Below are positions 14,518 to 35,113 of a DNA stretch of 64,000 nt, one piece after another. A model generated the notes under the pieces. It made no database searches, was not told the DNA's origin, and worked only from the letters and a program-made list of their open reading frames with translations. This DNA comes from Humisphaera borealis (GTDB lineage: Bacteria; Planctomycetota; Phycisphaerae; Tepidisphaerales; Tepidisphaeraceae), in NCBI RefSeq assembly GCF_015169395.1, contig NZ_CP063458.1, forward strand, positions 682,001 through 746,000, read 5' to 3'. A program made the position numbers and the translations under genes. How positions within the stretch are numbered: position 1 is the stretch's first letter; every line of letters begins with the position of its first letter.

Positions 14518-17358
14518 ATGCCACGCTCTTTCTACATCATTGACGGCCATGCCCACATCTATCGCTCCTATTTTGCCCCCTTTCGCGATCTGACCAGCCC
14601 CACCGGCGAGCCGACGAAGGCGACTTACGTCTTCACCCAGATGCTCCTGAACCTGATCGACCAGCGAAAGCCCGATTACCTGGCGATGGTCATCGATTCC
14701 GGCGACGAAACCGTCTTTCGACGCGAGATTTTCCCCGAATACAAGGCCAACCGAACGCGCCCTCCCGACGACTTTGCCCCCCAGGAGGAGCGCATTCTGA
14801 AGGTCGTCGAAGACGCCGGGGTGCCCATCTTCGCCAAGCCCGGGTTCGAAGCCGATGACCTGCTGGCGACCATGGCCGAGAAACTGAAGAACGATGGTTT
14901 CGAGGTCTTTATGGTCTCGAAGGACAAGGATCTGCGGCAACTGCTGGGTCCTAACGTCAAGATGTACGATGTGCAGGGGGACGAGGTAATCGACCCCGCC
15001 AGCCTTGAAGCCAAGCTCGGCTATACCCCTGAGGAAGCGGTCGAGATTCAGACGCTCATCGGCGACACCACTGACAACATCCCCGGCATCCCGGGTGTCG
15101 GCGAGAAGACGGCTGTGAAGCTGGTGAAGAAATACGGGTCGGCCGACGCGGTTCTGCAACATCTGGACGACCTGACGCCAAAGCTCAAGCAGAACTTCAT
15201 CGAGCACGCCGACAAACTGAAGATGTCGAGGCAACTGGTGACCCTGCGGCGCGATGTCGATTTTCCGTTCAACCCCGAGGCGTGCAGGTATACAGGTTTG
15301 AACGACGCCGGCCTGCGAAAGCACCTTCAGGAACTGAATTTCTGGGCGTTGCTCAAACGCCTCGGCCCGCCGCCGGCCGAAGCAAAGCCCCGCAAAGCTG
15401 CCCCGGTGGTGGCGGCGGCCGGCGACGGATTCTCGGATTCGCTCTTTGGTGACGGCACCCTTTTTGGTTCCGGCGGAGGCGGCGGTGACGCCGAACCGGC
15501 AGGCATCACCAATAGCGGTCCGGTGCTCGAAACCTCGGCGGGTCTGCCGTACCGGATCGTCACGACGACCGAGCAACTCACCGAACTGACAGACGGCTTA
15601 CGAAAGGCCGGACGGTTTGCATTCGACACCGAGACCGACGCCCTGGGCGCGATGGCGTCGAACCTCGTCGGCCTGAGCTTCTCGTGGGAAGCCGAAACCG
15701 GCTGGTATGTCCCCGTCGCGGGACAATCGACTGCGCCACTGCTGGGCCGTGAAGAAGTGCTCGCGGCGCTCAAGCCGATTCTCGAAGACGAATCGATCAA
15801 GAAGGTCGGCCACAACATCAAGTACGACTTGCTGGTGATGCGGATGGCGGGCGTCACGCTCCGCGGGATCGAAGTCGACACCATGATGGCGGCATTCCTG
15901 CTCGACGCCGGTCGCAACCAGTACGGCATCGATTCACTCGCCCGCGAGATGCTGGCGTTCCAGAAGATCCCGACCAGCGATCTGATCGGCAAAGGTGTCA
16001 AACAGCTGTCGATGGCGGCAATCGATGTAGAAAGGGTCGGCCGTTACGCCGCCGAAGACGCCGACATTGCGCTGAGGCTCGCCAACCTCCTGTCGCCACG
16101 CCTGGCGGCGATCCCGGAACTTCAGAAGCTCATCGACGACGTCGAAACGCCGCTGATCGATGTGCTCGCCGAGATGGAACACAACGGCATCGCCGTCGAT
16201 CCGGCAGTGCTTAAGGAACAGAGCGTCGTCCTCGGCGACCGGGCCGACGCCCTTCATGCCCGAATCATGACCGAGGCCGGTGTCGAGTTTAACCCCGACT
16301 CGCCCAAGCAACTCGCCGAGGTGCTGTTCACCAAGCTGAAGCTGAAAGTCGTCAAGCGGACCAAGAGCGGCCCGAGCACCGACGTGCAGGTGCTGGAAAA
16401 GCTCGCCGACATGCACCCCGTGCCGAAACTGATTCTTGAATACCGCAGCCTGATCAAGCTTAAGAACACCTACCTCGACAACCTCGGCGATTACATCAAC
16501 CCGAAGACCGGCCGTATCCACGGCAGCTTCAACCAGACCGGTGCCGCGACCGGCAGGTTGAGCATGTCGGACCCGAACCTGCAGAACATCCCTATCCGCA
16601 CCGATGAAGGCCGGCGCATCCGCCTGGCGTTCGTCGCCGGCGATCGGGAGAAGAATGTCCTGCTGTCGGCCGACTACAGCCAGATCGAACTGCGCATCCT
16701 TGCCCACTTGTCGCAGGAGCCGGCGCTGATCAAGGCGTTTGAGGCCGACGAAGACGTGCACCGCGCCGTTGCCGCTGAGGTGTTCGGCGTTCCACTCGAT
16801 CAGGTCTCCCGCGACCAGCGCGGGCAGGCGAAGACGATCAACTTCGGCATCATTTATGGCGTCAGTGCATTCGGGCTCGCTCAGCGAATCGAAGGACTGT
16901 CGGTCTCGGCCGCGAAGCAACTGATCGCGTCGTACAACGCCCGGTTCCCTCGCATCCAGCATTTTCTGATGCAGTGCGTGAAGCACGCGCAGGATCATGG
17001 CTATGTCAGCACGCTGATCGGTCGGCGACGGCCGATCACGGAGATCGACTCCGGCGTCATCCACATGCGCAATGCCGCCGAGCGGATGGCGATCAACAGC
17101 GTGGTCCAAGGGTCGGCGGCGGACCTGATCAAGATCGCGATGGTCGATGTCTACCGCCGACTACGGGCAGATAACCGCCCGAGCAAGATGCTACTGCAGG
17201 TCCACGACGAACTGGTCTTCGAAACGCCCAGGGACGCGGTCGAAGTCGAGGCAAAGATGGTCCAGGAGGTCATGACGGCGGCGGGGGAGAAGATGGGCCT
17301 GAAGGTGCCGCTGAAGGTTGAGGCCGCCTGGGCGGCGAATTGGGGAGAGGCGAAGTGA
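14518..17358 (+). CDS. polA: DNA polymerase I
   Basis: This is a 946-residue, three-domain Pol I that fills and repairs DNA and removes RNA primers. Residues 1-290 are the 5'-3' flap exonuclease (DGHAHIYRSYFA, EADDLLATMA, IGDTTDNIPGIPGVGEKTA). A Gly-rich linker follows at about 300-350. The 3'-5' proofreading domain appears active: FDTETDAL with D370 and E372, HNIKYD, and Y510-x3-D514. The polymerase domain covers about 560-946, with SADYSQIELRILAHLS (motif A), RGQAKTINFGIIYGVSA (O-helix, motif B), VQGSAADLIKIAM and QVHDELVFE (motif C). Length and motif order are normal for the family. The start at 14518 is the only one that gives the family N-terminus. It appears to be monocistronic. Confidence 0.97.
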   Translation: MPRSFYIIDGHAHIYRSYFAPFRDLTSPTGEPTKATYVFTQMLLNLIDQRKPDYLAMVIDSGDETVFRREIFPEYKANRTRPPDDFAPQEERILKVVEDAGVPIFAKPGFEADDLLATMAEKLKNDGFEVFMVSKDKDLRQLLGPNVKMYDVQGDEVIDPASLEAKLGYTPEEAVEIQTLIGDTTDNIPGIPGVGEKTAVKLVKKYGSADAVLQHLDDLTPKLKQNFIEHADKLKMSRQLVTLRRDVDFPFNPEACRYTGLNDAGLRKHLQELNFWALLKRLGPPPAEAKPRKAAPVVAAAGDGFSDSLFGDGTLFGSGGGGGDAEPAGITNSGPVLETSAGLPYRIVTTTEQLTELTDGLRKAGRFAFDTETDALGAMASNLVGLSFSWEAETGWYVPVAGQSTAPLLGREEVLAALKPILEDESIKKVGHNIKYDLLVMRMAGVTLRGIEVDTMMAAFLLDAGRNQYGIDSLAREMLAFQKIPTSDLIGKGVKQLSMAAIDVERVGRYAAEDADIALRLANLLSPRLAAIPELQKLIDDVETPLIDVLAEMEHNGIAVDPAVLKEQSVVLGDRADALHARIMTEAGVEFNPDSPKQLAEVLFTKLKLKVVKRTKSGPSTDVQVLEKLADMHPVPKLILEYRSLIKLKNTYLDNLGDYINPKTGRIHGSFNQTGAATGRLSMSDPNLQNIPIRTDEGRRIRLAFVAGDREKNVLLSADYSQIELRILAHLSQEPALIKAFEADEDVHRAVAAEVFGVPLDQVSRDQRGQAKTINFGIIYGVSAFGLAQRIEGLSVSAAKQLIASYNARFPRIQHFLMQCVKHAQDHGYVSTLIGRRRPITEIDSGVIHMRNAAERMAINSVVQGSAADLIKIAMVDVYRRLRADNRPSKMLLQVHDELVFETPRDAVEVEAKMVQEVMTAAGEKMGLKVPLKVEAAWAANWGEAK

Positions 17359-17640
17359 CGACTTGAAGCTGCAGAATCGGAACTTCGCATCTGGCGAGCA
17401 GGCCCGGGAGGCCCCCTCGACTTACCTGTGGCTTGTCCTGTTTCGCCAATCGACTGGAGATCGCCCCGGCGAACATATCCAGGTCCGGAAATCCATTCGA
17501 ATTTGAGCCGCAGGCGCATGTCGCCGGCGTCGGCTCGAAATACGTGCACAGTGATATCTCGTAAGGGCGATCGTCGTCTCTTCAGTGCCGATGCCGCGCG
17601 CCCGCGTGGCCGCTGTTTCCCTCTGTCCAGAGCTGTCGTC

Positions 17641-19827
17641 ATGCAAATCCAAACCCTCGAAGCGCGAACTCTTTTTTCGGCACTCTTTCCCCAGACTGAC
17701 ATTCGTGTCGATTCCAATCGCGACGGCGTCATTACCGTCGCCGACAATACGAAAGAAGAGACCTGGACGTCAGGCAAGCTGGGGGCCGGGGCGGTCATCC
17801 TGCCCAACTTCGATCGCGACAACACCACGTCGCTCGCCCCCGACAACTGGGCCGGCGGCAACTGGAATGGCCGTCCGGCCGCGCCCAACAACATCATCGA
17901 CAACACCGCCGACCTGGCCGACGTCGGCCGGTTCCGCCTGTACCGCCTCGGGTCCGACTTCGAGTCCTACCAGTACAAGGTGACGCTACAGATCATTGGC
18001 CCGGCGACCGACTCGGCATTCCACAAAGGCATCCTGCCGCAGGATCGGGTGCGTGTCTTTTTCCCGTCGAAACAGACTGCCGACGGAAACCTCACCGTCC
18101 AGCCCGGCGATGTCGCCGTCTTCGGGCCGGGTCTCGGTGACACGATCCGGTTCGTCAACAACCCCGCCGCTCTGAACGAGTATGCGATGTCCGATCTCGG
18201 CGGCGACGGCTACCTGGAGTTCGGCATCGAGGGGCTGCGAGCCGGGGCACAGGTCCGACTGAAGCTGACGATCGAATACGATCCGATCCTCACCGACATC
18301 GTCGTCGCCGGCGAGCCGGCCGAGCCGCCGACCGTGATGACCGACACCGCCGTTCTTCGCGTCGCGCCGTTCGTGCTGTCGGACAACCGGATGAAGGTGA
18401 AGAAGGCGATCGTCGAGAACATGAACCGTTACGGCTTCGATAACGCAGAACTGCGCAACACGATGTCGCAGGTGTTCGGCAGCCGAAAGGTCGAGTCGCG
18501 CAGTGGGGATATCTGGCAGCAGGACGGGTATGAGATCGGTTACGTCGCCGCTCCCTACGGATCGATGTCGGCGGTGCTCGATCTGCCCAGGGCAACCGAC
18601 GTCTTTTTCGAACAAGGGGTGACCATGCGGTCGTTCGTACGCGGAACGCTGCTGGGATCGGGCGTAGGCGTGGCGACGGATGTTGCCGGGTTTCCGCACG
18701 TCACCAGCAGCGCCTTCGGCGGCGATATCGAGGGCATCGGCAAGGCCGGCGGAAAGCCCGGTCAGCCCGGATACATGCTTGCCAGCGGAATGCCGCAGTT
18801 CCTGAAGGACTTCATTGCGGCGCAGGGCACGCATCAGGTGATCGACCTGAAACTCGACGACTGGCTCAGCGTCGCTCATGTGGACGAGGTGATTCACTAT
18901 GCCGCCGATGGCAAGCATGTCGCGGTGGCCGATCCGGAATCGGCCTGGGCTCTGTTGCTCTGGGCGGCGAAGCTGAACCCAAATGTGAAGATGCACCCTA
19001 CGCTCAACGGCAACGAGTGGCTGCCGAACGCCGACCCTGCCGGCGTCAAGGCATCGGTGTACCTGAACAACCCGATCCTGCGCCAGCAGAACATGGAATA
19101 CGCCATGGCGGCGAGCCGACTGCCGGCGGCATGGAACGCGATCAAGTCGGCGTTAAAGCTGACGGAAGAGCTCACCACGCCGGCCGCGGCAGGTGCCAAC
19201 ACGGGCACCGCCAGGCTCGTACGCGGTGGGGCGTTTACGCAGTTTCTTTCCGGCGTGAAACGCACCTTCCAGATTAAGTTCACCGACGCCGACCGCTACC
19301 GGCTGCGATACAGCGACAACGGCGGAACCACCTGGTCGGGCTGGGCCGACGGACAGCGGTCCAAGGACTGCGTTTTCCCTGAAGCCAAAGCTTTCCTGCT
19401 CAAGCACTACTGGACGGGCGTCTCCAAGGCCGGCGATGTGTTTACTTATGCAACCAACCCGGCGGCGACCCTGATCAAGATGCCGGTGCTCTTCTACGGC
19501 CCGGACGCGTTCTTCCAGGGTGCACCGATCGGCCAAAGCGTGGTCATTGAAGGCCCTCCACGCCTTGGCGCATTCACGATGAATCACGTTAACTCGCTGG
19601 TAGACGGCGGTACGGTCATCACCGGAAAGGCGCAGGGGCCGAAGGTCGCCTGGCGTGGCGGGACGGCGAGCGACATTCTCGAAGACTACGCCGCCGCTGT
19701 GTTCCGCGGGGCCGGATATACAACCGTCCGTTTTGCGGACGCTGCCATTTATCACAACTCCGGCGGAAGCATTCATTGTGGCACGAACGCGATCCGCGAG
19801 ATTCCGACGGAGAAGTGGTGGGCGTGA
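17641..19827 (+). CDS. Secreted protein-arginine deiminase (PAD-type)
   Basis: The 728-residue product converts peptidyl-arginine to citrulline, if active. The C-terminal domain matches animal and cyanobacterial PADs closely: IWQQDGYEIGYVAAP holds D295 (D350 of human PAD4), LDDWLSVAHVDEV holds H413 and D415 (H471 and D473), and GGSIHCGTNAIREIP followed by KWW holds C713 (C645). LDLPR corresponds to the substrate-arginine loop. Of the PAD4 calcium ligands (from memory), Q294 and E298 fit site 1, while several site-2 ligands are replaced. The N-terminal part has an EF-hand-like DSNRDGVIT loop and beta-rich regions. The ATG at 17641 is chosen because the protein then opens with MQIQTLEARTLFSAL, an LEPR-XLL-like export motif seen in other proteins here. 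It stands alone, with a 282-bp upstream gap. Confidence 0.9.
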   Translation: MQIQTLEARTLFSALFPQTDIRVDSNRDGVITVADNTKEETWTSGKLGAGAVILPNFDRDNTTSLAPDNWAGGNWNGRPAAPNNIIDNTADLADVGRFRLYRLGSDFESYQYKVTLQIIGPATDSAFHKGILPQDRVRVFFPSKQTADGNLTVQPGDVAVFGPGLGDTIRFVNNPAALNEYAMSDLGGDGYLEFGIEGLRAGAQVRLKLTIEYDPILTDIVVAGEPAEPPTVMTDTAVLRVAPFVLSDNRMKVKKAIVENMNRYGFDNAELRNTMSQVFGSRKVESRSGDIWQQDGYEIGYVAAPYGSMSAVLDLPRATDVFFEQGVTMRSFVRGTLLGSGVGVATDVAGFPHVTSSAFGGDIEGIGKAGGKPGQPGYMLASGMPQFLKDFIAAQGTHQVIDLKLDDWLSVAHVDEVIHYAADGKHVAVADPESAWALLLWAAKLNPNVKMHPTLNGNEWLPNADPAGVKASVYLNNPILRQQNMEYAMAASRLPAAWNAIKSALKLTEELTTPAAAGANTGTARLVRGGAFTQFLSGVKRTFQIKFTDADRYRLRYSDNGGTTWSGWADGQRSKDCVFPEAKAFLLKHYWTGVSKAGDVFTYATNPAATLIKMPVLFYGPDAFFQGAPIGQSVVIEGPPRLGAFTMNHVNSLVDGGTVITGKAQGPKVAWRGGTASDILEDYAAAVFRGAGYTTVRFADAAIYHNSGGSIHCGTNAIREIPTEKWWA

Positions 19828-19916: not shown

Positions 19917-20453
19917 ATGGAACTCGCCGACGACAGCGAACCGTTGAAACTGCAGCGCGACCCGCGTCCGATCCTTCCCGAGCCGCCGCCAGTTCGGCTG
20001 GTGGCGGTGGACGACGTTGTATTGCTCACGCCGCCCGGGAAGGAGCCGCAGCTCGACGCGTTCTACGTCGGTCTGTTGCGGATGGAGCGGGAGGATCAGG
20101 AGTTGCCCGTCCGCCCGCCCACGGCGCCGATCCTCGGCGACGCGGCACCGAACCTGCCAGCGGCGCGCGTGCGACGGCCTCTGCCGGCCTTGCCGGCGGG
20201 GGCGATCCAGGGGCCGGTGTACCGGGCGGAGAAGCACCGAGTGTCGTTCCATGTTCTGGAGCCGTTGTTCGAACGCGACAGCCTGCGACCACTCGGAGTT
20301 GAAGTGCCATCGCTCACCTCCACGCGGCTACAGATCGAGCGGTTAGAGATCGACTACACCCGCCAGAAGGGGCTGTACGCAGGACAGGATTCTCTGCTGC
20401 TGAAAGACCCCGGCGGCAACTGGATTGAGATCATGGAAAGCCGACCGATCTGA
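19917..20453 (+). CDS. Small protein with VOC/glyoxalase-like C-terminus
   Basis: The 178-residue soluble product opens with an acidic, Pro-rich stretch. It then has a V-x-V-D-D-V-V-L-L-T-P segment and, at the end, LKDPGGNWIEIMES. These resemble the first strand and the final DPxGNxIEL strand of vicinal-oxygen-chelate (glyoxalase/dioxygenase) folds. The middle (about 60-110) is Pro/Arg-rich and unlike the family. The final Glu in the strand could be a metal ligand, but a complete ligand set is not evident. It lies 68 bp before coaE on the same strand. The function is unknown; the VOC assignment is tentative. Confidence 0.62.
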   Translation: MELADDSEPLKLQRDPRPILPEPPPVRLVAVDDVVLLTPPGKEPQLDAFYVGLLRMEREDQELPVRPPTAPILGDAAPNLPAARVRRPLPALPAGAIQGPVYRAEKHRVSFHVLEPLFERDSLRPLGVEVPSLTSTRLQIERLEIDYTRQKGLYAGQDSLLLKDPGGNWIEIMESRPI

Positions 20454-20521: not shown

Positions 20522-21235
20522 GTGTTTCAGGGTATCCCTATCATTGGCATCGTGGGCGGTGTCGGCAGCGGCAAGAGCCACGTCGCGCACCTCTTTGGCA
20601 ACTTGGGATGTCTGGTGATCAGTTCCGATAAACAGGTCACCGAGGCTTATGCTCTCCCGGAAGTTTTGAACCAGATTCGGCAACGATGGGGTGATGAAGC
20701 GATTGGCCCGCAGGGCCTGATCAATCGTAAGCTGATTGCGTCGAAGGTGTTCAACGTGCCGGCCGAGCGGCAATGGCTCGAAAGCCTGCTGCACCCGGTG
20801 GTGGCGAATCTGCGTGATGCGGTGATGCAGCAGGCTGCGCAGCAATCGGAGCGGCCCGTCGCGTTTATCTGGGATACGCCGCTCCTTTTTGAGGTCGGCC
20901 TGGCAGATCGCTGCGACGCGGTGGTTTTTGTGGATACCCCCGACGACGTCCGGCTGGATCGGGTCAGGAGATCCCGCGGGTGGGACGCCGGGGAATTAAG
21001 ACGTCGGGAAATTTCACAATGGCCTCTGGACAAAAAGCGGAGACTGTCTCATTATGTGATCACGAACGCGGCGGAAACGCCTGATTCGTGTCCCGCTACG
21101 AAAGATCCCGCCCGCCCACCGGAAGTTGACTCCCCAGTAGCATCGGTAGACGGCGAGATCAGCGGCTCATGCGAGTTGCGCCGTCAGGTCAGGCAGGTGC
21201 TCTCCAGAATTGTATCCGACCTCCGGGCGAACTAG
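20522..21235 (+). CDS. coaE: Dephospho-CoA kinase
   Basis: The 237-residue enzyme catalyses the last step of coenzyme A synthesis, phosphorylating the ribose 3'-OH of dephospho-CoA. A P-loop (GIVGGVGSGKSH, residues 9-20) is followed by the family segments VISSDKQV, HPVVANLRD, DTPLLFEVGLADRCDAVVFVDTP and the lid-type RSRGWDAGELRRREISQWPLDKKRRLSHYVITN. The C-terminal 45 residues (after about 190) are longer and less conserved than usual. The start is a GTG at 20522; no other start preserves the P-loop strand. It is probably transcribed with the VOC-like gene 68 bp upstream. Confidence 0.93.
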   Translation: MFQGIPIIGIVGGVGSGKSHVAHLFGNLGCLVISSDKQVTEAYALPEVLNQIRQRWGDEAIGPQGLINRKLIASKVFNVPAERQWLESLLHPVVANLRDAVMQQAAQQSERPVAFIWDTPLLFEVGLADRCDAVVFVDTPDDVRLDRVRRSRGWDAGELRRREISQWPLDKKRRLSHYVITNAAETPDSCPATKDPARPPEVDSPVASVDGEISGSCELRRQVRQVLSRIVSDLRAN

Positions 21236-21953
21236 CTTCGGCTATGAGTTGCCTCCTTAACGGCGCCGCTTGATCGCACAGTTTGTCTGTCCTATATAAC
21301 CGCCCTGTTTTCGATTGAATGGGGCGACCGACCTGCCTACAGTGCAAGCAGGCGGGGAGATCTGGTGACAGATCGAGCGTAACAGATCGAGCCTTGGCGG
21401 GTAGTATCGGCAGGATCAGGAGCGCACCGGTGCCGTGTTTGTTGGGTGGCACCGCTTGAGCCAGAGAATGAACTGAATCTACCCGCCGTCAGGCAATTCA
21501 AACGAGTATCACAAGAACATCAGTGACGTAGCAGGCCAACGAATCAGGTCAGCGAGCGATAAACGACAGCGCCGCAGAAGGTGTCTGCCACCAATCGACT
21601 CGAACCCCAAAATACTGCGTTATCTCGACTGATTGACAGAACACCGGCGTTTGCCGGAAACCGCACCCGCCTGACAGGCTCGGCATCGTGTCGAGGTCTG
21701 GCAGGGTTCCCCCGACTCTGCGAATGTCATTGATGGCACCAGGATCGGAGCGGCGGGGAGTGGCGAGCGTATCGCCATACCTCGCAATGACCGTAGCCCG
21801 ACGGTTTGAGACAGCGGGCGCGGCGTCCTTTCCCGTCAGAACCGATCTGTTCCGCCGGATAAGACGCGCGATAATCGCCACCCGGGCGAGTCGCGATGCA
21901 ATTCATACTGATAACCCACAGATCATTCCCCCTCACAGGAGGCCTTGAGACCA
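21236..21953. other. Long leader/intergenic region upstream of rho
   Basis: This 718-bp region between coaE and rho has no credible ORF or tRNA. A 7-bp hairpin at 21428-21454 (CGGTGCC with GGCACCG) is the only clear structure I see. In other bacteria rho is autoregulated through its leader, so a long 5' untranslated region is plausible here, but nothing in the sequence proves it. Confidence 0.35.
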
Positions 21954-23801
21954 ATGGCCAAAGCAGGCAGCAGTCGTCCCCGTCGCACACGAGCAGTTGT
22001 AGAACCCGTTGAGACGGAAGTTGAAGTACAGGAAGCCGCGCCGAGCGTCGCGGTGGAGCCCGAACCCAAGCCGGCCCCCGTCGTGGCGGCCCCGGTTGTG
22101 GTTGCTCCGACACCCGTCGAATCGCGTGAAGAAGTCCGTCAAGAGCCTGCGCCGCGCGACGAGCGCCCCGCAGGACGCGAGGATCGACCGGAACAGCGTA
22201 CCGGCGATCGAGGCAACGGCGACCGCAACGATCGTCCCCCCCAACGCAACGACCGCCGGCCCGAACAGGGACGTGGCGATCAGGGACGTGGCGACCGAGG
22301 TGGTGATCGCGGCAACGACCGTGGCGGCGACCGCAACCGCCCCCAGCAGGACCGTGGCAACGATCGCGGCGGCGACCGAAACCGCCCGCCCCAACAGCCC
22401 CGCTACGACAACCGTGACAACCGCGATAACCGCGGCGGTGGCGGCGGTGGCGAACGCCGCGAAGAACGTCGCGAAGAGCCCCAGTCGGAAGACGTCTCGA
22501 ACATCGACGCCGAAACCAACGCCAAGTACGAGCAGGTCAAGGGCGGCAAGCTCTTCATCAAAGACCTGCAGGTGATGGACATCCTGAAGCTGCACGACAT
22601 CGCCCGCGATGAAGGCATTCAGGATTACATCGGCCTCAAGAAACAGGACCTGATCTTCCAGATCCTTCGCAGCCGCGTCCGCCAGAACGGCCTGATGTAC
22701 GGCGAAGGCGTGCTGGAGATTCTGCCCGACGGCTTCGGCTTCCTCCGCAGCCCGGAGTTCAACTATCTCCCCGGCCCCGACGACATCTACATCAGCCCGA
22801 GCCAGATCCGCCGGTTCGGCCTGCGCAACGGCCACGTCGTGCAGGGCCAGATTCGTCCGCCGAAGGAGAGCGAGCGTTACTTCGCGCTGCTGCGTGTCGA
22901 GGCGATCAACGGCGAAGACCCGGACAAGATCACCGAGACCGGCACGTTTGAAGACCTGACGCCGCTGCACCCGCACAAGCGCATCGTCCTCGAGGCCGAC
23001 CCGAAGGACATGAACATGCGGATCGTCGACCTGGTGACGCCGATCGGCATGGGTCAGCGCATGCTGATCGTCGCGCCGCCGCGTACCGGTAAGACGGTCC
23101 TGATGCAGAAGATCGCAAACAGTATCAGCACGAATCATCCTGATGCGGTGCTGATCATCCTGCTGATCGACGAGCGTCCGGAAGAAGTAACGGACATGGA
23201 GCGGAACACCAAGGCCGAGGTTATTTCCTCGACCTTCGACGAACCCGCCAGCCGTCACGTGCAGGTCGCCGAGATGGTGATCGAAAAGGCCAAGCGGTAT
23301 GTCGAGTTCGGGAAGAACGTGATCATCCTGTTGGACTCGATCACGCGTCTGGCCCGCGCCTACAACACCGAAGTCCCGCACTCGGGCAAGATCCTGTCCG
23401 GCGGTGTTGACGCCAACGCACTGCAGAAGCCCAAGCGGTTCTTCGGCGCTGCCCGCAATATCGAAGAAGGCGGCAGCCTGACGATCCTGGCGACGGCGCT
23501 GGTCGACACCGGCAGCAAGATGGACGAAGTCATCTTCGAAGAGTTCAAGGGCACGGGTAACTCCGAACTGCACCTTGACCGTCGTCTGGTCGACCGCCGA
23601 ACGTACCCCGCGATCGACATCAACCGCTCCGGCACGCGGCGTGAAGAGCTGCTGCTGGACAAGAAGGAACTCGAACTGGTTTACCGTCTCCGTCGCGTGC
23701 TGAGCGACATGAACCCGGTCGAAGCCGTCGAGCTTCTGAAGGGCCGGTTGGAGAAGGTGGCGAGCAACGCGCAGTTCCTGATGTCGATGAATTTGGATTG
23801 A
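21954..23801 (+). CDS. rho: Transcription termination factor Rho with long disordered insert
   Basis: Rho is a hexameric RNA-dependent ATPase that ends transcription. The ATG at 21954 follows AGGAGG at 21937-21942; a TTG at 21945 is in frame but less likely. Residues about 1-60 are Ala/Pro/Val/Glu-rich. Residues about 65-165 are a disordered insert of repeated Arg/Gly/Asp/Asn ([13 protein letters not shown]-like) units. The Rho-N helical domain follows (about 195-240), then the cold-shock RNA-binding domain ([37 protein letters not shown]), then the ATPase domain with APPRTGKT (Walker A), [13 protein letters not shown] and the Q-loop/R-loop region. The catalytic core is complete at 615 residues in total. 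Confidence 0.96.
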
Positions 23802-31301: not shown

Positions 31302-33296
31302 ATGCCGATTTCTCTGATGCGATCGACCCGTCGCGCCGCCCGTTGTGCCGTCGAAGGCCTTGAGTCGCGGCAATTGCTCGCCGCTGCGCCGTCGGCCCTG
31401 GTTGCCAAGGTTCCGGAAGCGGCGGCTTTCCAACTCGTCTACGACCTGAATATCCCGAAGCTCGGCGGAAGCTACAACACGACCGCAGTCCCGTACAGCG
31501 TCAACGATGCGGCCAAGATCACAACGCCGTTCGATCGGGTGGCCTACCACCTGCAGTTGACCAAGGCCGATGGCACCACGCAGTGGGTGTATGTGTCTGC
31601 CGATGCCTTCACCCAGGACGCAAAGAAGCTTGGCGTGCCCACGTTTGCCAGTGGCGGCGCGTTCCAGAATGCCATCAGCAACCTGAACGTCAAATCCAAT
31701 GTCGCCGGCATTGTGCAGGGGACGGGGTTGAGCGGCGGCATGATGGAGTTCTGGCCGAACAGCTATAACACCCGCAATGCCGCGGGCGTGCCCGGGGCAT
31801 CGGAATGGGGTTACGACTTCGGCGACGAAATTGGCCTGCCGGCCAACGGTTATGGATCGATGCAGATCCACAATTACAACGCCCAGCAGACTCTTTTCGC
31901 TTACAACGCCTGGGGCGGGCTCGAACCGACGAAAGACGCTGAGATCGGAATCGGCAACAGCCCGACCGGCGGCAAGGACTGGACGTTCAACAAGTCGGCG
32001 GGGCAGTGGAGCGTCCGCCGCTTGCAGGTGCTGGTCCGGCCGACGACGACTGTGCCGCCGACGTCGCCACCGCCGGTGTCTCCGCCGCCGGTGTCACCTC
32101 CCCCAGTGTCACCTCCGGTGTCGCCACCGGTCGCCGGAGGCACTAGGATCAACTTCCAACCGGCGGCCGCTCCGACCGTTTCCGGTTACCTGGTCGACGC
32201 AGGTCAGACGTATGGCGCTCGCAATGGTCGAACCTACGGCTGGTCCGTGAGCCATGCCGACGCGGTTTACGACCGCAACGTCAACGCGAATCAGCTCCTG
32301 GACACAGCGGTCGGCGTCAAGGCCGGCGGAAAGTGGGAACTGGCCGTCCCCAACGGCAAGTACGTGGTGAAGATTGCCGTCGGCGATGCTGCCGCCACCA
32401 GCCAGAACAACGTTTGGGTCGAGGGATCGCAACTCTTCAACCAGGTTCCCCTGGCGATCAATGCGTTTTCGACCAAGTCGGTCACGGTCAATGTCACTGA
32501 CGGGAACCTTTCGGTCGGCGTCGGGAGTGCCGCGACAGGCAAGACAAAGCTCAACTACATTGAGGTCGCTCCGTCGACGACGCCGGCACCCACGATCCAA
32601 CTTGGAACGATCCTTCCGCTTGGTGACTCCATCACGTGGGGCTACGAAGACAAGAAACTGCCCACGGGCGGATATCGCAGCCGCCTGTACGACAAGCTCG
32701 CCGCTGCCGGTGCCGGCTTTACCTACGCCGGCTCCGAAAACGACCCCTTTGATTCGTCACTGCAGGCACCCAAGCTGACCCGCCATGAAGGTCACGGTGC
32801 ATTCCGCACCGACCAAGTGGCGGGCAACCTGCTTGGCGTCGCCCCTGGCAGCAATGTCTCCAGCAACAATGGTGGTCACTGGCTCGACGGCACCGCTAGC
32901 CATCCGGCGATCAACCCTCAAATTGTGCTGTTGCACATCGGCACCAACGACATCCTTCAGAAGATCGCTCCGGCGACGGCGGCGGCGAATCTTGACAGTA
33001 TCATCAAGACGCTTACCGACGCCCGCCCGACTGCCAAGATCTTCGTCTCGACGATCATCCCGACGCTCGACGCGACAAAGATGACTGCTCTCAAGCAGTA
33101 CAACGACCTGCTTAAGCAGGTGGTCGCAAAGTACAAGGCGCTGGGTAAAAAGGTGACTCTGGTCGATATGTACACGCAGTTCGTCGATGCCACGGGTGCC
33201 CCCCGCGCAAGTCTGTTCTCTGATTCCGTTCACCCGACTCGTGCCGGCTACGACAAGATCGGCGACGCCTGGTCGGCGGCCATTCTGGCTGCCTGA
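31302..33296 (+). CDS. Secreted multidomain SGNH/GDSL hydrolase
   Basis: The ATG at 31302 (664 residues) is chosen because the protein then starts with a basic leader and VEGLESRQLLAAA, an LEPR-XLL-like motif. Residues about 40-245 are a beta-rich domain containing GYGSMQIHNYNAQQTLFAYNAWG. A linker of PPPVSPPPVS-type repeats (about 248-280) follows, then a malectin/CBM-like beta-sandwich (about 283-425: INFQPAAAPTVSGYLVDAG...). The SGNH hydrolase occupies about 430-664, with GDSITWGYE (nucleophile Ser), an oxyanion Gly, GTNDI (Asn) and DSVHPTRAGY (Asp/His). It probably removes acyl groups from polysaccharide outside the cell; the substrate is inferred only from the carbohydrate-binding-like domain. 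Confidence 0.85.
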   Translation: MPISLMRSTRRAARCAVEGLESRQLLAAAPSALVAKVPEAAAFQLVYDLNIPKLGGSYNTTAVPYSVNDAAKITTPFDRVAYHLQLTKADGTTQWVYVSADAFTQDAKKLGVPTFASGGAFQNAISNLNVKSNVAGIVQGTGLSGGMMEFWPNSYNTRNAAGVPGASEWGYDFGDEIGLPANGYGSMQIHNYNAQQTLFAYNAWGGLEPTKDAEIGIGNSPTGGKDWTFNKSAGQWSVRRLQVLVRPTTTVPPTSPPPVSPPPVSPPPVSPPVSPPVAGGTRINFQPAAAPTVSGYLVDAGQTYGARNGRTYGWSVSHADAVYDRNVNANQLLDTAVGVKAGGKWELAVPNGKYVVKIAVGDAAATSQNNVWVEGSQLFNQVPLAINAFSTKSVTVNVTDGNLSVGVGSAATGKTKLNYIEVAPSTTPAPTIQLGTILPLGDSITWGYEDKKLPTGGYRSRLYDKLAAAGAGFTYAGSENDPFDSSLQAPKLTRHEGHGAFRTDQVAGNLLGVAPGSNVSSNNGGHWLDGTASHPAINPQIVLLHIGTNDILQKIAPATAAANLDSIIKTLTDARPTAKIFVSTIIPTLDATKMTALKQYNDLLKQVVAKYKALGKKVTLVDMYTQFVDATGAPRASLFSDSVHPTRAGYDKIGDAWSAAILAA

Positions 33297-34727: not shown

Positions 34728-35110
34728 GGGGGCGACTGGTTTCGACCGGATGACGACGTTGACGGTGGCATGCCCAGGACGCTCTCTAGGCCTGGTTAAT
34801 CACGAGAGCAATTTCATAACTGCCAACAACGATGTTGCAGGCCGAGTCGGCTTCACGGCTGCCCCGGTTCGAATGGCCGCCTAATTAACTAGGCAGCCTC
34901 GGCATGGTGTGGAGCCCGTGACACACCAGCCGAAAACAGCGGGCTGGTTTGCCGATTCTGACGTCGGTCGGCAAACGAGAAACAGACGGCTGGACCCCGA
35001 CGGAGAGTGCTGCTTCCCGCCGCCGGGGTCGAGATTAAAAAAGCAGATACGCATGTAGATGCCGGCAATGAAGTGATCTCGGGACGGGGGTTCAATTCCC
35101 CCCGCCTCCA
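34728..35110 (+). ncRNA. ssrA: Transfer-messenger RNA (tmRNA)
   Basis: tmRNA rescues stalled ribosomes and tags the unfinished protein. The mature 5' end GGGGGCG at 34728-34734 pairs with CGCCTCC at 35103-35109, with one G-U pair; the discriminator base is A at 35110. CCA is not encoded. The conserved D-like segment GACTGGTTTCGACC and the T-arm GGGGTTCAATTCCCC are present. The tag reading frame starts with GCC at 34822 and ends at TAA 34882-34884, giving 20 residues that start ANNDVAGRVG and end VRMAA. This is longer than the 11-residue E. coli tag. Downstream pseudoknot sequence is rich in CGGG/CCCG pairs. A strong terminator follows. Confidence 0.96.
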
Positions 35111-35113
35111 CTA

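Follow-up and report, generated by a model that had tools for sequence, protein, structure and literature searches.

The open reading frame at positions 17641 to 19827 on the forward strand of the window, that is, the whole 64,000-nucleotide stretch of the Humisphaera borealis genome that was analysed, encodes a protein that we regard, with a probability of about two in three, as a genuine, probably catalytically competent and probably exported (LEPR-type) protein-arginine deiminase (PAD) of a deep-branching subtype seen so far only in planctomycetes. The frame begins with an ATG and specifies 728 amino acids plus a stop codon; an alternative in-frame GTG at 17428 would yield a longer product. 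Pfam searches matched the protein to PAD (PF03068) in two stretches (1e-28, 100.9 bits against a cut-off of 25) and, above the curated cut-off, to PAD_M (3.3e-6, starting at about residue 17), with no match to PAD_N, and this HMM check agrees with the original prediction that the gene encodes a PAD. A phmmer search of the PDB returned PADs only, the best being human PAD2 (1.5e-21), with PAD4 at 2e-18, while searches of PHROGs and NCBIfam assigned no family. Together with the predicted fold, these matches describe a two-domain coding sequence lacking PAD_N, in which a PAD_M-like middle domain (17689..18330, forward strand), located also by a residue map to human PADI2, is followed by a PAD_C catalytic domain of the pentein fold (18331..19824, forward strand).

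As had been proposed, the gene sits in a planctomycete genome, a single contig of 7.19 Mb in which it is the only PAD. Its upstream neighbour is a polA-like gene (14518-17358); downstream lie a small ORF at 19917, a coaE-like gene (20522-21235) and a rho-like gene (21945-23801), the three gene names having been given by eye. Nothing beside the PAD gene could be recognised as a partner or immunity-like gene, and the stretches available around its relatives share none of its neighbours and point to no partner gene and no substrate. The GC3 of the PAD gene (0.79) equals that of polA (0.80) and rho (0.79), so that by composition it is no recent arrival. Further along the window, a tmRNA gene with the tag ANNDVAGRVGFTAAPVRMAA was found at 34728-35111.

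An AlphaFold2 model of the protein, built on a 44-sequence alignment, had a pLDDT of 89.7 and a pTM of 0.88. All 50 Foldseek matches listed for this model were human PADs (best E 6e-39), and VIA-align superposed it on human PAD4 with a Z of 41.7 and 2.3 Å over 500 residues, PAD4 being the comparison suggested with the original prediction. Because model residues 14-728 pair with PAD4 residues 110-660, the alignment corresponds to PAD_M and PAD_C, with PAD_N absent. The residue map to PADI2 confirmed the four catalytic positions named in the original prediction: D295 (18523..18525) and D415 (18883..18885) align with the catalytic aspartates D351 and D473, H413 (18877..18879) with the catalytic histidine H471, and C713 (19777..19779) with the nucleophilic cysteine C647, all on the forward strand, and these partners constitute the PAD active site. 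W292 (PADI2 W348) and R317 also occupy PAD positions, and the glycine adjacent to the catalytic histidine (PADI2 G470) is replaced by A412. The expected KWW ending is there as well, the C-terminus reading EKWWA with its WW aligned to the KWW of PADs. Within the four-member clade that the protein forms with its closest relatives, 172 of the 728 positions (23.6%) are invariant, among them D295, H413, D415, C713 and W292. Retention of all four catalytic residues where 24% of positions are invariant indicates continued selection. Judged from its sequence and predicted structure, the Humisphaera protein is a genuine PAD-family member: its catalytic set is complete and its predicted fold is that of a PAD.

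Calcium ligands were assigned to sites according to PMC8826395 and general knowledge of PAD2 and PAD4. In the PADI2 residue map, site 1 retains its ligands Q294, E298 and E364, and most of site 2 is gone (E352>G296, S371>L315, D374>A318 and D389>G341 in PADI2 numbering, with D370 kept), much as had been suspected for both sites. In PAD_M, the ligands D24, D28, N56, D58, D60, D68, D91 and D94 are kept and E131 is changed to T32. Calcium site 2 serves activation in animal PADs. With the D389 switch and most of the site 2 ligands gone, the Humisphaera PAD is expected to be controlled by calcium in another way than animal PADs are, and by this pattern of residues it could be either inactive or differently regulated.

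The most distinctive feature of the protein is one absent from the original prediction, a beta-rich insert of ∼99 residues in PAD_C (residues 510-608; 19168..19464, forward strand) that falls between PADI2 positions 563 and 564. Among PADs outside the insert group, the stretch corresponding to PADI2 557-569 is exactly 13 residues long in human PAD2 and in two from Streptomyces. Of 39 further bacterial and archaeal sequences compared, 38 have this length as well and one, from Lachnotalea, has 18. The same stretch spans 106-113 residues in the Humisphaera PAD, its three relatives and the PAD of another, distant planctomycete, G011. A profile made from the four clade members matched the G011 insert with an E of 1.7e-11 among the available PAD loci, and an insert profile that itself included G011 found matches in G000 and G011 only when run against 294 genomes of the phylum. 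In the full AlphaFold2 model the insert consists mostly of beta strands with pLDDT >90; folded alone, it reached a pLDDT of 68.6 and gave no Foldseek match below 0.001. Weak FlgL and Wzc rows in that search, none of them under 0.001, were not trusted. Pfam returned only sub-threshold BNR and HCBP_related matches for the insert, and a sequence search of the PDB returned none. A single insertion in an ancestor common to the four-member clade and G011 would fit the insert and the tree together, a fit that does not amount to proof. Possible roles of the insert lie in the selection of substrates, in oligomerisation or in attachment to the surface. Six divergent planctomycete PADs (L059, L060, L061, L062, L063 and L066) have an extra stretch of another, longer kind, for example YVRIYSGAGAGQVAHI..., located N-terminal to the helix before the Humisphaera-type insert site, and several of these PADs make up the C-terminal end of open frames of 1,200-2,500 residues.

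Relatives of the Humisphaera PAD were found in a genome of the same genus (57% identity) and in two genomes of the same family (55% and 42%); family-wide, 4 of the 26 genomes carry one. One family member, G474, has an intact PAD and, on another contig, a short C-terminal PAD relic (L057:3733-3900), a decayed second copy indicating that the gene can be lost. In a 62-row tree that included two Streptomyces PADs and no fungal sequences, the small clade of Humisphaera and three genomes of its own family had 100/100 support and a long stem. Grouping this clade with G011 was not rejected by the AU test (p 0.6) and improved the log-likelihood by 2 units. By sequence, the Humisphaera PAD is best assigned to a deep bacterial branch and not to the animal/cyanobacterial one, its exact deep placement being uncertain because long branches are in play.

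The original prediction had called the protein animal/cyanobacterial-type, and this part of it did not hold. In its fullest form, the idea would be that a PAD4-like enzyme with the complete calcium switch was acquired by horizontal transfer, and the fold and catalytic residues are indeed the same, the PAD_M calcium ligands are largely kept, and identity with human PAD2 is 28% over 512 aligned residues. Yet PAD_N is absent, E352, S371, D374 and D389 are not kept, and the GC3 values given above show no sign of recent transfer. Moreover, human and cyanobacterial PADs, together with those of Campylobacteraceae and Lachnotalea, form a clade (100/99) that excludes the Humisphaera PAD, and forcing the Humisphaera clade into the human/cyanobacterial group was rejected under the tree model used (AU test, p = 0.0036). 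We therefore give this explanation hardly any credit. A distinctly improbable alternative is that the protein is a two-domain PAD of the actinobacterial/fungal type, known as clade B, for which both the absence of PAD_N and the change of D389 to G have been reported (PMC8826395). Against it, the Streptomyces HHH motif (VLTHHHL in P0002) reads FVLSDN in the Humisphaera PAD, and the two Streptomyces PADs in the tree, which stand for this type there without fungal sequences, branch with Myxococcota, apart from the Humisphaera clade, whose own basal placement is uncertain.

PADI6 is an example of a PAD-fold protein reported to be inactive or to act by binding, and the Humisphaera protein might likewise be catalytically inactive, with an adhesive or structural role for its insert and domain. 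The loss of calcium site 2, the G470>A412 change beside the catalytic histidine and the large insert would all suit such a role, as would the related PAD domains that form the C-terminal end of very large proteins (L059, L061, L069 and L070), but the catalytic residues are all strictly kept in relatives with as little as 41% identity, against a background in which the majority of positions differ, and we consider this account unlikely. A deiminase acting on free arginine or agmatine instead of proteins would use the same pentein chemistry, as arginine and agmatine deiminases do. Matches to the PAD family and fold, the presence of PAD_M, and W292 and R317 at PAD positions argue against this account; besides, no adjacent arginine-catabolic genes were recognised and probable export, which is suggested by analogy, would fit arginine catabolism poorly, so that it appears very unlikely. 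The preferred reading of a genuine, probably competent PAD would most likely correspond to an exported enzyme that needs calcium to citrullinate proteins and whose calcium control is altered; its activity, calcium dependence, export and substrate and the role of its insert are inferred. On the usual PAD mechanism, the guanidinium of a peptidyl-arginine would be bound by D295 and D415 and attacked by C713, with H413 serving as the acid/base and water freeing the citrulline; the pocket itself would owe its shape to calcium at site 1 and in PAD_M.

The N-terminus of the protein, MQIQTLEARTLFSA, runs nearly straight into PAD_M and contains LEARTLFSA (17656..17682, forward strand), a candidate export or sorting signal. 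Its description as LEPR-XLL-like stands in part: LEARTLFSA resembles the motif, and the orthologues carry LEPRCLF, LETRSLM and LEGRRLL at the same place, but neither NCBIfam LEPR-8K nor Pfam Planc_extracel matched the Humisphaera PAD. NF012209 had no match genome-wide and none in the controls either, and PF07595 reached just 0.016, below the cut-off, in one relative. A LEPR-like motif was present near the start of four further ORFs in the 464 kb of the Humisphaera genome sampled. Another ORF in the window, starting at 31359 on the forward strand, opens with the LEPR-XLL-like LESRQLLAA and its product is likely exported. No standard signal peptide is evident in the Humisphaera PAD. Most other planctomycete PADs have a lipobox or a Sec-like hydrophobic N-terminus, and by analogy with them the Humisphaera PAD is likely exported.

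Compared with the three-domain human PADI1-4 (PAD4 structures 3b1t, 5n0m and 2dew), the Humisphaera PAD has in common the PAD_M and PAD_C fold, the four catalytic residues, calcium site 1 and most PAD_M ligands, and differs by its insert, its position in the tree and the lack of PAD_N, most of site 2 and the D389 switch. The PAD_C/PAD_M core and catalytic residues of the cyanobacterial three-domain PADI (Cyanothece 8801 type) are also similar, whereas the Humisphaera PAD differs at E352 and D389, has no PAD_N, lacks part of the site 2 and site 4 residues present in the cyanobacterial protein and lies outside its clade. In vitro, the cyanobacterial PADI shows calcium-dependent citrullinating activity (PMC8826395), and it is therefore plausible that a bacterial PAD should be active. 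Actinobacterial/fungal two-domain PADs (Streptomyces P0002 and P0003) resemble the Humisphaera PAD in the absence of PAD_N, and some have G at D389, but their branch is separate, they have 13 residues at the site of the insert, and the Humisphaera PAD_M-PAD_C linker, RVAPFVLSDNR, lacks HHH. The G011 PAD (L068:6852-9230:+) carries its insert at the identical site; it is 26% identical to the Humisphaera PAD and, unlike it, has a lipoprotein-type N-terminus and keeps E352 and the D389-equivalent D. Pentein-type deiminase chemistry is also that of Porphyromonas PPAD and the agmatine deiminases. These families are separate from the PADs (PMC8826395), and no Pfam match to them was found in the Humisphaera PAD. 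Protein citrullination by true PADs has been little studied in bacteria, the example being one cyanobacterial enzyme (PMC8826395). If active and exported, the Humisphaera protein would be a bacterial PAD with no calcium switch and with a catalytic-domain insert, and would serve as a natural experiment on the calcium sites required for PAD activation. That it represents a distinct exported planctomycete class, in which the insert and the lost site 2 provide new control or aiming of citrullination (towards surface, foreign or matrix proteins), is a tentative and rather doubtful extension.

PADs are phyletically broad but sparse. The statement that they are uncommon in bacteria is right per species, PADIs being found in <1% of bacterial species (Cummings et al. 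2021, PMC8826395), but the family is broad, with at least 545 PAD-like loci from many bacterial phyla and archaea in the genome collection, and PF03068 matches occur in 25 of the 392 sampled genomes of the phylum (∼6%) and in 11 of the 298 sampled genomes of the class, Humisphaera counted in both; most of these planctomycete PADs have export-like N-termini, and several form the C-terminal end of open frames of 1,500-2,500 residues. Scanning genome contigs with the Humisphaera PAD as a single sequence gave no match, and a canonical alignment was required as query. No relative of the Humisphaera PAD was found on plasmids, and no PAD relative in viral contigs by the scan used. Planctomycetes are absent from the main text of Cummings et al. 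2021 (PMC8826395), and the literature searched contained no paper linking PADs with them. In addition, the PADs of a Campylobacteraceae MAG (L096:3158-5191) and of Lachnotalea glycerini (L147:3110-5182), which have ∼125 residues N-terminal of PAD_M, grouped with human and cyanobacterial PADs at 100/99 in one tree and 90/87 in a second, while human and cyanobacterial PADs alone still formed a group, at just 86/74; the animal/cyanobacterial clade is thus less exclusive than reported in PMC8826395. One archaeal PAD match was dismissed in the same study as a misbinned cyanobacterial sequence. We found the same PAD in three separate Methanophagales assemblies (L111, L113 and L117), in syntenic stretches of 92-94% DNA identity, and these PADs group with those of Vibrio/Bowmanella (98/96) and not with cyanobacteria.
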